Shown piece after piece: positions 17,003 through 23,181 of a stretch of DNA of 38,033 nucleotides; position 1 is the stretch's first letter; each line of letters begins with the position of its first letter. The stretch is from Chloroflexota bacterium (GTDB lineage Bacteria > Chloroflexota > Anaerolineae > Anaerolineales > Villigracilaceae). Location of the stretch: assembly GCA_016208355.1 (NCBI GenBank), contig JACQYE010000064.1, positions 1 through 38,033 on the forward strand. Direction: 5' to 3'. A program made the translations under genes and the position numbers. The notes below the pieces were generated by a model. It was not told where the DNA came from, made no database searches, and saw nothing but the letters and a program-made list of their open reading frames with translations.

Positions 17003-18127
17003 CTAGATAGGTTTCAAGACAGCAACTACCACCCCCCGGACATAAAATCCCTCGTTGATTTTCTTGAACACAAACGGTTTATGAACAGGATTGCTGCTAT
17101 TCGGTTTCAGCGTAATCGTATCCTTCTCTTTGAAATACCGCTTCAACGTTGCCTTATTATCCACGCCGACGATCTCTGCCAGAACGATATCCCCATTTTC
17201 GGGTACATCTGCTCTGCGCAGCATCACGAAATCCTGTTCGGTGATATTTTCCAGGTTCATGCTATCGCCCTTGACCTTTACCACAGCGATTTTTTCGAGC
17301 GGCAGATTGATTAGTCTGCGCCCGCGCGTGCTATGAATACTGTAGGGTCGCCCATTAATGGATAAACGGTCAAGTTCGACTGTCCCAATCGGAAAAGGGT
17401 CGTTTCCACTCGGTCCGAAGTCTCCAGCCGGTATCTCTTCAGATACGGTGAAAAGTTGGAGGATATCAGCAGTGTGCGTTGCGTCGGACTCAACCGATAT
17501 GGAAGTATCGGAGATATGCAAGAGCCCGGGGGCTAAGGGCAGGGGGGTCTCGGACGTTTGCTCGGGTTGGGGAGCAAAGGCGCTTTCCGTTGTTCCGGTT
17601 GCTTGAACCATATCAATATACTTGCCGATCTCTTCCAGGGCTTCGATCAAACTTTGCTCCAACAGACGGTAAGTGTTTTCGTACCAGGTTCGCTGCTCAC
17701 GAGGAGTGGAGGGCTGCCTGGCCAACCGGTCAAAATCGGAGAGGCTATTGCGCCAGAAAATCACTGCCTGCTGACGGGCTGGCATGGAGCGCCACTGGAC
17801 AGCCCCCAACAGCCATTGAATCACAGCCCTTCGGTGCAAATCGGACCAAGCGCGTGACACGGCATCCGATAGGATTGCCCCGGCTTCGTCGAGATTACCC
17901 AACCGACCTGCGGCCTCTGCGCATTCCAGCAAGACCTCCGTCACCTCGGCGTCATCCCGCAGTTTGCAGGCATGATCCCTTAGTTGCTGGAGAAGACCTG
18001 CCGCTTCAGTGAGATGGCCAGCCTGGAGGGACGTTTTCAAATGGCCGATCAGACTGCTTGAAGAAGATCGAAGGTGGCTCGCTCCATACTTATTCAACCA
18101 CGAATATACTTCTTCAAAAGCAATCAT
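17003..18127 (-). CDS. S24 (LexA/UmuD-type) peptidase-domain protein without a DNA-binding domain
   Basis: A 374-residue protein. Residues 1-175 are helical and Leu/Ala-rich, with a TPR-like look (AAGLLQQLRDHACKLRDDAEVTEVLLECAEAAGRLGNLDEAGAIL region), and show no helix-turn-helix. A Ser/Thr/Pro linker (176-225) follows. The C-terminal domain (about 230-374) is an S24 fold: KGDSMNLENITEQDFVML with candidate nucleophile Ser289, DIVLAEIVGVDNKATLKRYF with Lys329, and LKPNSSNPVHKPFVF. An Ala-Gly pair at 234-235 could be a self-cleavage site, though it lies 55 residues before Ser289, against about 35 in LexA. It overlaps the SPFH-like gene upstream by 4 bp. It may process, or signal through, the SPFH complex; the function is unknown. 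Confidence 0.82.
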   Translation of the reverse strand: MIAFEEVYSWLNKYGASHLRSSSSSLIGHLKTSLQAGHLTEAAGLLQQLRDHACKLRDDAEVTEVLLECAEAAGRLGNLDEAGAILSDAVSRAWSDLHRRAVIQWLLGAVQWRSMPARQQAVIFWRNSLSDFDRLARQPSTPREQRTWYENTYRLLEQSLIEALEEIGKYIDMVQATGTTESAFAPQPEQTSETPLPLAPGLLHISDTSISVESDATHTADILQLFTVSEEIPAGDFGPSGNDPFPIGTVELDRLSINGRPYSIHSTRGRRLINLPLEKIAVVKVKGDSMNLENITEQDFVMLRRADVPENGDIVLAEIVGVDNKATLKRYFKEKDTITLKPNSSNPVHKPFVFKKINEGFYVRGVVVAVLKPI

Positions 18128-19353
18128 CGTGCGTCCTTTTTTCCTTCGCCCGGAGCAGGCAGAGGTTTCGCTTCTTTAGAGAGCCCCTCGCCCATTGCTT
18201 CAATAAGCTGGGCGGTGCGCACCAGGATCATGTCGCGCAGACCCTGGCGGCTGCCACCGCGCAGATCAGCATCCGAGAGGGCATGGATGATGCTGATCAA
18301 AATCTCAGCCTGGGCCTCGGCGCGCCCAATCTCCTGGTAGGCGAGGTGCTGGGCTTCGCCATAGGAGCGATTCAAGCGGGCGTCGCCCAACCATTTGGCT
18401 TGCCATGTGTTCAGTCGCTGTTTTTCCACTTGCTTGTTGGGAATCTCGAAACTGCCAATATCAATGGACAGCAATTCCGTGCCGCGGCGGCGGAGCTTGC
18501 CCGCAATTTCCGGGGAAAAGGCCTGGCGCTTTATATCGCCGCGCGGGTCGGCGCCCGTCTCCTGGGGGGCGGTGAGGTGATCAAGGGTGTTGTGGTTGAT
18601 ATAGGTGGAGATGACCTTGCGGATATCGGAGGCAACGCCGGAACTCCAATCGCCCAGCCCGTCTTCGGAGACTGTGCGGTTATAGAGCGTGTCGTAGATG
18701 GCGTCTTCAGCGTAGGGATAAGGATTTTTGCGCCGGGCAGCCACGCGGTCCGCGAGCAGGCGGAAGCGGAAACGCGTGCGCCCGATGCGGACATCAAAGC
18801 CGTCACGCGTCATGGCAGAAATCCCTTCCATTTCCCCATACTGGTCTTCTAGGGCAATCGGCTGGACGCGCTCAAAGCGAGGGACAAAGTGGCTGCCGTC
18901 GGAGTAAATGGCGGTGGGGGCGGTCTGGCCCTCGAAGAGAACCGCATTCCCCGGCTGGACATAGACATTTCCGGGGCCGCCGATGACATCCAGCATATTC
19001 ACATCGTCCTTCTTGAGGCTCTTTGTCTTGCCGCCAGAGATACTCAATTTGGGGTAGAAGAGGCCGAAAAACGAGGCAAAGAGATAACGGAAGGCGTAGC
19101 GGAGTTTTTCCAGTTCGTAGATATCCTGGATGTAGCGCATCCCGGCCAGAAAAACCAACAAACAGGCAAAGAACGGCGCGATCAGGTAACGACCGAGACC
19201 GGGCAAGAAAAATGAAGCCAGGAAGAATGCGAGACATAATCCGCTCAAAAAGATTAAACGGAACACGCCCCATTTGCGATCCCCCGAGAAGAAATTTCCT
19301 TTCCCGGCTGACGGGTTTCCCTGCGAAGACTTGGCTTGCGCGCTATTCGCCAT
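18124..19353 (-). CDS. SPFH/band 7-like membrane protein, second paralogue
   Basis: A 409-residue protein. After a polar N-terminus, two hydrophobic segments (about 30-52 and 53-73) anchor it in the membrane. An SPFH-like beta domain follows: GPGNVYVQPGNAVLFEGQ (about 126-143) and GISAMTRDGFDVRIGRTRFRF (about 177-197), like the band 7 'T-x-D-x-V-x-V' strand. The C-terminal part is helical with TWQAKWLGDARL and an Ala/Glu-rich GRAEAQAEILISIIHAL stretch, matching the tail of the protein encoded upstream (TWRSRWQ and AQAQREIIYNLSQ). The two therefore look like diverged duplicates that could form a heteromer, as HflK and HflC do. Start is 5 bp after the upstream stop. Membership in SPFH is my judgement from motifs. 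Confidence 0.7.
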   Translation of the reverse strand: MANSAQAKSSQGNPSAGKGNFFSGDRKWGVFRLIFLSGLCLAFFLASFFLPGLGRYLIAPFFACLLVFLAGMRYIQDIYELEKLRYAFRYLFASFFGLFYPKLSISGGKTKSLKKDDVNMLDVIGGPGNVYVQPGNAVLFEGQTAPTAIYSDGSHFVPRFERVQPIALEDQYGEMEGISAMTRDGFDVRIGRTRFRFRLLADRVAARRKNPYPYAEDAIYDTLYNRTVSEDGLGDWSSGVASDIRKVISTYINHNTLDHLTAPQETGADPRGDIKRQAFSPEIAGKLRRRGTELLSIDIGSFEIPNKQVEKQRLNTWQAKWLGDARLNRSYGEAQHLAYQEIGRAEAQAEILISIIHALSDADLRGGSRQGLRDMILVRTAQLIEAMGEGLSKEAKPLPAPGEGKKDAR

Positions 19354-19358
19354 ATCGG

Positions 19359-21053
19359 TTATCTCGGCTCGTCGGGTGGCAACTTGTCATTGGGGGCAGA
19401 AATCCAGCCTGAGGACTGCCCGGAGCGGTCCTGCGGAAAGAGGATGTTCTGAAAGCTCTTGAGCATATCCACAGTATCGCGAGGGAGAAGCCGGTTGGTG
19501 GCAGGATTGGCAGCGGCGGATTCCAGCGCCTGAAATATGCGAATGGCCATAGCGTCCTGGGTAAAACCGGGCAGTTTGAAGATCTGGGAAAGGTTATAGA
19601 TGATCTCGCGCTGGGCCTGGGCGCGGGAATGATTCAATTGACGCATGATCTCGAGATCATAACCGGCATTGGTGATCTCCGTCTCCTTTTGCCAACGGGA
19701 ACGCCAGGTATCAAAGCGTTGCTCGGGAATGGTGACATCAATGGGCTTGAAATCGGAGAAACCAACCTCGATGACCTTGATCCCGCGATCCCGAATCGGC
19801 TTTGGGTTGTGCAGTTCCATGACATCCCAGAAAACAAACTCATCGGGATTGAAGATGTCGTCTTCCTGCGGAATCCTGCCGTCCTTGCGCTGAACGAACT
19901 GGAAGGATAAAACACCCAGTGATTTCATCTTTCGTTTGAATTCTGGTTTGAAGGTGTCATAGAGGTAACAACCTGGCTCGGGACTATCCAGGGAATATAA
20001 ATCATCATAGGAAATCCGGGATAATTCATCCAAGAGGAGTGAGACTGCCACCTGGGCGGGGAGGTCGGTCCATTTTTCCAGTTTGCCATCCCGGGTATTG
20101 CGCGGCTGGGATATGACCGCTGAAATAATTCGGTCCTCATCGAAAGTATAAGGAGGGCGATTGCTGGAAGGTATTTCGGCTGCAAGCGTGGAGGTGCGAT
20201 TGGGCTTTTGATCTCTAATACTCTTGTGAATCTCGGCAACATCCGTTTCATCAATCTTGTCGAAGATGGATATTTTTCTTGTATCCCGGTCAACCGACAT
20301 GATCCGCAAGTCATGGTCCTTGGTGTCGAACACCGTAATCACCTCGGAGGGCTGGCCGAGAGTAAAGATGGCATTCACATTGGTTTCCAATTCAATGCCA
20401 TCGCTGGTAAAGCCGCGGACGCCCTTGATCATGCGGAATTGCTTGCGCAGATCGACCGCGCCGCGAATCCGTTCTCCTGAGCGAAGGAAACCGATACCCG
20501 GACCCAAAGCCCGGATCGGCGAAGGTTGGTCGTCGGGTGGAACAAGTTTTTTAGGCAATTTGATGATCGGCGGGAGCGACCTGCTCTCCGAAACGACCGC
20601 ACTGGCCATATCAACAAACGCCAAGGAGGCAAACTTGGCTTTGACCCCATCGTCCTCAAGGCCTTCATCCTTGCGGGTGATCAATTCCCCATTTTTGACA
20701 AACACTGCCGGCCTGTGCAATCCAAAAACATAGTCCGTCAAACGCTGATACACCTGTTTTCTTTCCTGGGGATCCTTCGATGGTAGAACGAAGAGAGAAA
20801 TCCATTTCAGGAGGATAAAAAAACAAAACACAAAGATGATCAGGTTTGCCAGCAACACCAACAGAGCCTGGGGAGTTTCTGGCGGGAGGGCAGCAACAGG
20901 CTTGAACAAAAGCAATTGGAATATTGCTCGAATCAGCTGTAAGAGGATGGAGAACTCGGACCAAAATGCAATAATGAAAATCAATAGAAATATTGCTCCG
21001 ATCAAACGCGGCCAAAAAACTGGTCGTTCATAAAAGCGTTTACCATCATCCAT
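19359..21053 (-). CDS. SPFH/band 7-like membrane protein, first paralogue
   Basis: A 564-residue protein that heads the operon. The N-terminus has hydrophobic stretches at about 16-52 and 62-90. An SPFH core follows: GPGIGFLRSGERIRGAVDLRKQFR (184-207) and GFTSDGIELETNVNAIFTLG (214-233), as in band 7 proteins. Long inserts follow, then a tail with DTWRSRWQKE, a helical AQAQREIIYNLSQ segment and NRLLPRDTVDMLKSFQ. It is longer than HflK, HflC or stomatins, with about 100 residues between the membrane part and the SPFH core. A near-consensus promoter lies about 60 bp upstream. The role is unknown; SPFH proteins usually build membrane-attached cages or scaffolds that control proteases or channels. 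Confidence 0.72.
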   Translation of the reverse strand: MDDGKRFYERPVFWPRLIGAIFLLIFIIAFWSEFSILLQLIRAIFQLLLFKPVAALPPETPQALLVLLANLIIFVFCFFILLKWISLFVLPSKDPQERKQVYQRLTDYVFGLHRPAVFVKNGELITRKDEGLEDDGVKAKFASLAFVDMASAVVSESRSLPPIIKLPKKLVPPDDQPSPIRALGPGIGFLRSGERIRGAVDLRKQFRMIKGVRGFTSDGIELETNVNAIFTLGQPSEVITVFDTKDHDLRIMSVDRDTRKISIFDKIDETDVAEIHKSIRDQKPNRTSTLAAEIPSSNRPPYTFDEDRIISAVISQPRNTRDGKLEKWTDLPAQVAVSLLLDELSRISYDDLYSLDSPEPGCYLYDTFKPEFKRKMKSLGVLSFQFVQRKDGRIPQEDDIFNPDEFVFWDVMELHNPKPIRDRGIKVIEVGFSDFKPIDVTIPEQRFDTWRSRWQKETEITNAGYDLEIMRQLNHSRAQAQREIIYNLSQIFKLPGFTQDAMAIRIFQALESAAANPATNRLLPRDTVDMLKSFQNILFPQDRSGQSSGWISAPNDKLPPDEPR

Positions 21054-21111: not shown

Positions 21112-21141
21112 AGTATATACTTACTCATTCCTGATTGTCAA
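21112..21141 (-). promoter_or_regulatory. Sigma-70-type promoter of the SPFH/S24 operon
   Basis: On the minus strand TTGACA (21141-21136), a full -35 consensus, is followed after 18 bp by TATACT (21117-21112). Transcription would start near 21105, giving a leader of about 50 nt before the ATG at 21053. The strong hexamers suggest constitutive or repressor-controlled expression. Confidence 0.7.
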
Positions 21142-22213: not shown

Positions 22214-23095
22214 TTATTCCGCCGGTGTCTGCGTCGGCCAGCGCGTATCCGTCGGCCTCGGCGTGGACGATGGGAACAGCGTCCGGGTCCGGGTCGGGGA
22301 GACGCTCGGCGAGGGGGTAAAGGTGGGGGTGGGCGGATCACCCGTCACGCGGAATTCGCCCAGCACCTTCCATTCCATCCCGACAAACATGATCACCTGG
22401 TATGTCCCCGGCAGCCATTCCTCGGCAGGCGGATTCCATGCAGAGTAGGCATATCCCCCCGTGCCTCCCTGCCAGGGTTCGGTCTCGTAATAGACCAGGT
22501 CGCCGTCGCGGTACCACAGCGCCGTCCACTGTGCGCCGTCATTCATCCCGTCATAAGAAAAAATGGCAAAGATGCGCACAATCGGATTCTGAAAGACCGT
22601 CTGCGGGTCCACTGGCAGGAAATTGGAAATCGTACGCGAGAACTGGATCGGGCTGAAAATCGCCGCCGGGTTGGGCGTCACCGTGCTGGAAAACTGGATG
22701 GCGATCACGTCCGGCATAAAGGGCGTCGGCGTGACGGTGGGCGTGTCGCTGATGGCAGGGGTCGGCGTGATGCTTGGTATCTCGGAAATGGTCGGGGTCA
22801 GGCTGATGGTGGGTGTCAGGGAGACCGTCTGCGTCGGCGAGGGAGTCGGGCTGGGTGGGAAGTAGGTGTACGCAATTGGCTCGGCAAAACGCCCGATCAG
22901 GAAAGCCAGGCCTGCCAGCACCGGGGCAAAGGCAAGCGTCCACCAGCCGCCGGCCACCTGCTTGCGCCGCAGGCGGTAATAGGTCACCTTGCGCCCCGTG
23001 CGGATGCGCCGGATGCCCAGCCAAATGCTCGCCAGCCCCCCCAGAGCCGCCAGGACGACCGACATCACCACGGCATCGTGAATATCCAGGTTCAT
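22214..23095 (-). CDS. Membrane-anchored protein with Thr/Pro-rich linkers, function unknown
   Basis: A 293-residue protein. Two hydrophobic segments lie near the N-terminus (VVMSVVLAALGGLASIWLGI and WWTLAFAPVLAGLAFLIGRF), then a low-complexity Thr/Pro/Ser region of about 45 residues (SLTPTISLTPTISEIPS type). A folded domain of about 110 residues follows (IFAIFSYDGMNDGAQWTALWYRDGDLVYYE ... GTYQVIMFVGMEWKVLGEFRV), and the protein ends in a second Thr/Pro tail. The middle domain has the look of a beta-sandwich of extracellular proteins. The linkers suggest surface exposure. I start it at the ATG at 23095 where the first helix begins. The function is not recognised. Confidence 0.75.
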   Translation of the reverse strand: MNLDIHDAVVMSVVLAALGGLASIWLGIRRIRTGRKVTYYRLRRKQVAGGWWTLAFAPVLAGLAFLIGRFAEPIAYTYFPPSPTPSPTQTVSLTPTISLTPTISEIPSITPTPAISDTPTVTPTPFMPDVIAIQFSSTVTPNPAAIFSPIQFSRTISNFLPVDPQTVFQNPIVRIFAIFSYDGMNDGAQWTALWYRDGDLVYYETEPWQGGTGGYAYSAWNPPAEEWLPGTYQVIMFVGMEWKVLGEFRVTGDPPTPTFTPSPSVSPTRTRTLFPSSTPRPTDTRWPTQTPAE

Positions 23096-23181
23096 CAGGC
23101 CGATTATACCTGTTTGTGTTCTGACCGGTTCACGCACAGCCGGAGAGGGAGTGGATAATCTTGTGGGCCAGCCGGTATTTT

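Follow-up and report, generated by a model that had tools for sequence, protein, structure and literature searches.

A conserved Anaerolineales operon encodes a pair of SPFH-like membrane proteins and a TPR-S24 protein with a predicted self-cleavage site

We analyzed a 38,033-nucleotide stretch of DNA from a Chloroflexota bacterium (GenBank assembly GCA_016208355.1, contig JACQYE010000064.1; hereafter, the window), the minus strand of which carries a three-gene operon (21053..17003). The genes, named A, B, and C here in the order of their transcription, encode two SPFH-like membrane proteins and a soluble protein in which a TPR domain is joined to a LexA-like S24 domain. The operon is real, and the conserved gene set, the pairing of A with B, the domain makeup, the conservation of a cleavage site and a catalytic dyad in C, and the association of related operons with an NTPase are well supported. 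The reading that we favor, tentatively and with somewhat less than even confidence, is that C would be a self-cleaving adaptor on an obligate A/B SPFH scaffold and would act when the membrane is damaged or phages attack. If true, the LexA mechanism would be used outside DNA binding and DNA repair; to our knowledge, all self-cleaving S24 proteins act in DNA binding or on a DNA polymerase. With a conserved TPR-S24 protein linked to a pair of SPFH proteins, the S24 switch would have been transferred to a membrane scaffold, and the SPFH proteins of bacteria, which are poorly understood, would gain a partner whose state is simple to read, namely, cleaved or not.

A three-gene operon with a paired SPFH-like duo

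Gene A (19359..21053; all features of the operon lie on the minus strand) encodes an SPFH-like membrane protein of 564 amino acids (aa), of the type found first in such pairs; gene B (18124..19353) encodes an SPFH-like membrane protein of the second-gene type (409 aa), and gene C (17003..18127) encodes the soluble TPR-S24 protein (374 aa). A preliminary description of this DNA had noted a 5-bp gap between A and B and a 4-bp overlap of B with C, and the open reading frame coordinates confirm this tight packing; because genes were called as the longest open reading frames, the positions of start codons and of some overlaps are not exact. The TTGACA-N18-TATACT promoter named in the same description was located at 21112..21141 and matches the consensus at 11 of 12 positions. 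A scan for the promoter pattern alone performs at chance level (3 sites seen, 3.2 expected), but the block formed by the −35 element, the spacer, and the −10 element has hardly changed in two other members of the genus, in which the flanking DNA has diverged. The spacer motif occurs once per genome in four genomes of the genus, each time at the A-B-C operon, whereas the reversed control motif does not occur. Because the motif is both conserved and unique to the operon in these genomes, the spacer appears to be a dedicated operator of A-B-C.

To determine how widely the locus is conserved, we surveyed gene neighborhoods in related genomes, most of which are draft assemblies; copy numbers rest on sequence matches and represent lower bounds. 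Strong matches to A, which define class I (the type found in the window), were detected in 18 to 19 of 152 genomes of the family and in one copy from another family of the order. Across the 21 class I copies read on contigs of Anaerolineales genomes (one split between contigs and some cut by contig ends), the three genes are adjacent, on a single strand, and in the order A-B-C every time. Related but distinct operons form two further classes: class II comprises A and B without C, beside psuG, whereas class III comprises A, B, and a TPR-S24 gene. In all intact class I and class III cases read, the TPR-S24 gene lies directly 3′ of the SPFH pair, the one exception being a degenerate remnant. A broken, degenerate C gene at L120:5033-5835 has no adjoining SPFH genes and is apparently the leftover of a lost module.

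A and B are homologous to one another: hhalign aligns 299 columns of the two at E = 2e-22, BLASTP matches their tails at E = 6e-7, and the tail motifs previously described as shared, TWRSRWQ in A and TWQAKWL in B, align with each other. The Band_7 match is weak in the window proteins themselves (B, E = 1.6e-4, 22.2 bits; A, E = 0.075, 13.5 bits; Pfam cutoff, 23.6 bits), that of B covering residues 132 to 306 (18436..18960). Among homologues, Band_7 was detected in 10 of 19 B proteins at E ≤ 0.01 and in 12 of 20 members of the A family at E ≤ 0.1, and the B-type proteins of sister operons pass the Pfam cutoff with 39.1 and 30.5 bits. Given these matches and the mutual homology of A and B, we assign both as SPFH/Band-7-like proteins by homology, an assignment of moderate strength. 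Profiles of A and B gave no meaningful match to solved structures, no confident alignment emerged when the two families were compared by hhalign with a separate Band_7 protein, and an AlphaFold2 model of B built from three sequences reached a predicted local distance difference test score (pLDDT) of 37. A weak match of A to the fungal domain DUF1746 was rejected as an artefact of membrane helices.

By hydropathy, each protein has two N-terminal hydrophobic helices that are predicted to form a hairpin (A, residues 20 to 38 and 64 to 82, 20808..20996; B, residues 33 to 51 and 57 to 75, 19129..19257). The charges that flank the hairpins in the window proteins mildly favor a cytoplasmic SPFH body, and contact with the soluble protein C would therefore be possible.

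In a tree of 108 SPFH proteins, first-gene and second-gene proteins fall on opposite sides, each with a support of 99 in the Shimodaira-Hasegawa-like approximate likelihood ratio test (SH-aLRT), and the subclades of the two sides mirror each other. This mirroring indicates that A and B are co-inherited as a pair that is older than the separation of classes I to III, in agreement with the paired duo proposed in the preliminary description. The A-family profile matches 110 of 346 genomes of the class Anaerolineae, where a TPR protein often follows the related pairs, and in a phylum-wide sample every B match falls in this class. A mobile or phage origin of the module was considered and rejected: searches of phages and plasmids uncovered no B relatives, and for C the plasmid matches were limited to LexA-like S24 sequences, with a single S24-domain relative among viral contigs.

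A TPR-S24 protein with an invariant Ala-Gly pair and Ser-Lys dyad

The preliminary description had noted that an S24 protein, instead of FtsH, accompanies the membrane pair, and profile searches bear this out. Residues 278 to 368 of C (17024..17296) match PF00717 (E = 2e-15, 57 bits against a cutoff of 23.3), and among solved structures this domain is nearest to LexA and UmuD (E = 4e-16 against LexA structures). Profile evidence is thus clear for S24 in C, whereas SPFH similarity is weak in A and B taken alone and is secured through their homologues. Overlooked in the earlier account, which had otherwise given the makeup of the three genes correctly, were an NTPase gene that forms part of the operon in many relatives (see below) and the TPR domain of C (residues ~1 to 177; 17597..18127). 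The N terminus of C was modeled by AlphaFold2 with a mean pLDDT mostly between 80 and 94 across residues 1 to 160 and shows TPR repeats over ~170 residues; the model matches the TPR domains of KLC2 and LGN (Z ~15, root mean square deviation of 3.1 Å over 145 residues), and Pfam TPR matches are weak.

Unlike A and B, C has no hydrophobic membrane helix by hydropathy, and no DNA-binding domain was detected in it. C also falls well below the thresholds for the canonical members of its superfamily: it scores 56.8 bits against the LexA equivalog TIGR00498 (cutoff, 110.95), with only its C-terminal part aligned and a TPR domain at its N terminus, and 40.7 bits against the UmuD model (cutoff, 110), with SPFH genes as its operon neighbors.

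We then examined the residues that could support self-cleavage in an alignment of 40 C-type proteins. The predicted cleavage site, Ala234-Gly235 (17423..17428, from conservation), and the predicted catalytic residues Ser289 (17261..17263) and Lys329 (17141..17143), both from the alignment, are shared by all class I C proteins that carry an S24 domain (18 of 18). Class I proteins from outside the genus are only 25 to 33% identical and their linker is otherwise variable, yet these positions are kept; between residues 172 and 280, no columns other than this Ala and Gly reach ≥90% identity. Across all classes (n = 40), Ala-Gly is present in 29 of 35 C-type proteins that have the dyad and in 0 of 5 that lack it (Fisher's P = 7e-4, a value uncorrected for kinship and dependent on an uncertain alignment of the dyad-less proteins, and so supportive only). 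An Ala-Gly pair of this kind is where LexA-like proteins are cut with the help of a Ser-Lys dyad, in at least one case independently of RecA (PMC7101444). Class I C proteins are therefore predicted from sequence to be probably self-cleaving, and C looks like the switched component that the preliminary description had taken the S24 protein to be.

NfeD-type proteases trim stomatins, and C could in the same manner be a Ser-Lys protease acting in trans on A or B, for example on their Ala/Gln/Glu-rich tails, rather than a switch that cuts itself. The presence of its Ser-Lys dyad beside SPFH genes and the common pairing of SPFH genes with NfeD protease genes (PMC2636767) speak for such a role. We nevertheless consider it improbable, given that the invariant Ala-Gly pair lies within C itself, where LexA-like proteins cut themselves, that the S24 domain of C is nearest to the self-cleaving LexA and UmuD, and that class II SPFH pairs occur without C.

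A variable site, an NTPase partner, and the role of the module

In 12 of the 21 class I copies, a gene for a KAP-family NTPase lies directly upstream of A, mostly overlapping it by 4 bp; the four tested match PF07693 with E values of 3e-30 to 3e-35. The KAP gene of related loci matches the PADLOC 2.0 models PDC-S20, QatA, and PifA, with a score of 68 against the QatA model (cutoff, 600). The window module itself sits between psuG, which encodes a pseudouridine-5′-phosphate glycosidase of the Indigoidine_A family, and a gene for a PHP-domain protein. Within the genus, this interval holds a class I operon or a class III operon, and in two genomes it is occupied by an Mrr-type restriction cassette instead. 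Because the site is variable and relatives of the KAP NTPase occur in phage exclusion systems, a conflict or stress role of the module is plausible. Against such a role stand the lack of defence-model matches for A, B, and C and the lack of B relatives in phages and plasmids; moreover, the site could vary simply because several ancestral modules were lost differentially.

Several neighboring genes were recorded along with these loci. The restriction cassette (L169 and L170, in genomes G373 and G368) comprises an Mrr-type restriction endonuclease and a fusion of a response-regulator receiver with an IS200-like (Y1) transposase. One copy without a KAP gene carries an ORC-CDC6-like ATPase gene 3′ of A-B-C (L103:12169-13746). 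Three class I loci with a TPR-only C protein (L033, L108, and L110) adjoin a convergent pair on the opposite strand, of which one gene encodes a coiled-coil protein and the other a double-AAA+ protein that bears CbxX-type lid domains. In the window, the minus-strand gene at 22214-23137 encodes a 307-aa protein with a hydrophobic N terminus, a long low-complexity stretch rich in Thr, Pro, and Ser, and no Pfam family; a similar gene was found beyond psuG in L169.

We infer heteromer assembly, topology, docking, cleavage, trigger, and output as follows. A and B would assemble, as an obligate heteromer, into an SPFH-like scaffold that the N-terminal hairpins anchor in the membrane and whose SPFH body is probably cytoplasmic. 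C, a soluble protein, would act as an adaptor, with its TPR domain docked on this scaffold or, where one exists, on the KAP NTPase. Perturbation of the scaffold would then lead the LexA-like S24 domain to cut the linker of C at the Ala234-Gly235 site, parting the TPR portion from the S24 portion in an irreversible change of state of the complex, with cleavage as the output event. The complex would most likely serve the cell when its membrane is damaged or when phages attack. It is possible, although we regard this more specific proposal as doubtful, that the module is a membrane-anchored immune or stress switch, in which phage or an injury to the membrane is sensed by the SPFH heteromer, often together with a KAP NTPase, and relayed through irreversible TPR-S24 self-cleavage.

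Several observations weigh against this reading of C as a self-cleaving adaptor. The KAP gene is absent from the genome of the window (~91% complete), and PADLOC 2.0 defence models returned zero matches for A, B, or C. Some class III C proteins have the Ser-Lys dyad without Ala-Gly, three class I copies carry a TPR-only C without an S24 domain, and in some relatives from other families the C-terminal region of the C-type protein lacks the dyad. Such TPR-only and dyad-less proteins imply that some lineages can do without cleavage. They would also suit a role of C as a scaffold adaptor in which the S24 domain is mainly structural, mediating dimerization or docking, and cleavage plays no part. 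That explanation, too, seems unlikely, since Ala-Gly, Ser, and Lys are fully conserved in the class I S24 proteins despite the low sequence identity outside the genus. In five loci from other Anaerolineae families (L131, L137, L139, L142, and L145), the TPR protein that follows the SPFH pair has a C-terminal part that resembles an S24 domain after loss of its Ser-Lys dyad.

A slightly smaller chance falls to the module being a housekeeping organizer of membrane microdomains that has no stress or immune role. Ordinary metabolic genes border its chromosomal site, the superfamily of SPFH pairs is widespread in the class Anaerolineae, and the lack of B relatives in phages and plasmids fits as well. 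However, class I is patchy within a single genus, its site is exchanged for another module or an Mrr restriction gene, and the NTPase partners vary.

Last, we considered the SOS response. The genome has recA and lexA, its LexA is a protein separate from C, and its lexA promoter contains the box GAACGTATGTTC, but no GAAC-N4-GTTC-like box was found ahead of A-B-C, either in the window or in close relatives. A scan of 18 operon starts yielded one single-mismatch match, in a distant copy, which is below the background-rate expectation, and control of the operon through a LexA box was rejected. The proposal that C is an SOS effector, cleaved upon DNA damage by activated RecA to pass the signal to the membrane scaffold, is the least probable of those considered here: the closeness of its S24 domain to LexA and UmuD and the presence of recA and lexA are in its favor, but the operon lacks the box that the genome's own lexA carries, and neither a DNA polymerase nor a DNA-binding domain is linked to C.

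Relation to known systems

The module resembles HflK/HflC-FtsH in that two homologous, adjacent SPFH-type membrane proteins stand with a proteolytic partner, an analogy drawn in the preliminary description that proved loose. HflK and HflC have one membrane helix, whereas A and B have an N-terminal two-helix hairpin; the S24 protein replaces FtsH, no gene for which lies in the operon; and gene order and sizes differ. Profile similarity to HflK was likewise not found: hhalign of the A and B families against a single HflK sequence gave a probability of 2.5% and a short, partial alignment.

Stomatin-NfeD loci share with the operon an SPFH gene adjoining a gene for a Ser-Lys protease. C differs in being soluble and of TPR-S24 type, lacking both a membrane helix and an NfeD domain (Pfam detects S24 and TPR families only), and the likely cleavage site lies here within the partner, C. 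With LexA, UmuD, and CI-like proteins, C shares the S24 fold by sequence, the Ala-Gly site, and the Ser-Lys dyad; in place of their DNA-binding domain it has TPR, and its gene is linked to those of membrane proteins. Its spacing from Gly to Ser (54 residues) is also longer than that of LexA and UmuD, in which ~35 residues separate the two.

The Qat and PifA antiphage systems have a counterpart in related loci, where the gene for the KAP NTPase matches their models, but A, B, and C fall outside the PADLOC models and the genome of the window has no KAP gene. In Bacillus subtilis, the SPFH protein YdjI works with PspA in an envelope stress complex of the phage-shock response (PMC8581546); the partners there are PspA and YdjG/H, whereas here they are TPR-S24 and KAP proteins. 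In the open-access literature, we found no paper that joins SPFH proteins with an S24/LexA operon or a KAP NTPase with SPFH proteins. Judged against that literature, the assembly of an SPFH pair with a TPR-S24 protein appears undescribed, and every component of it comes from a known protein superfamily.
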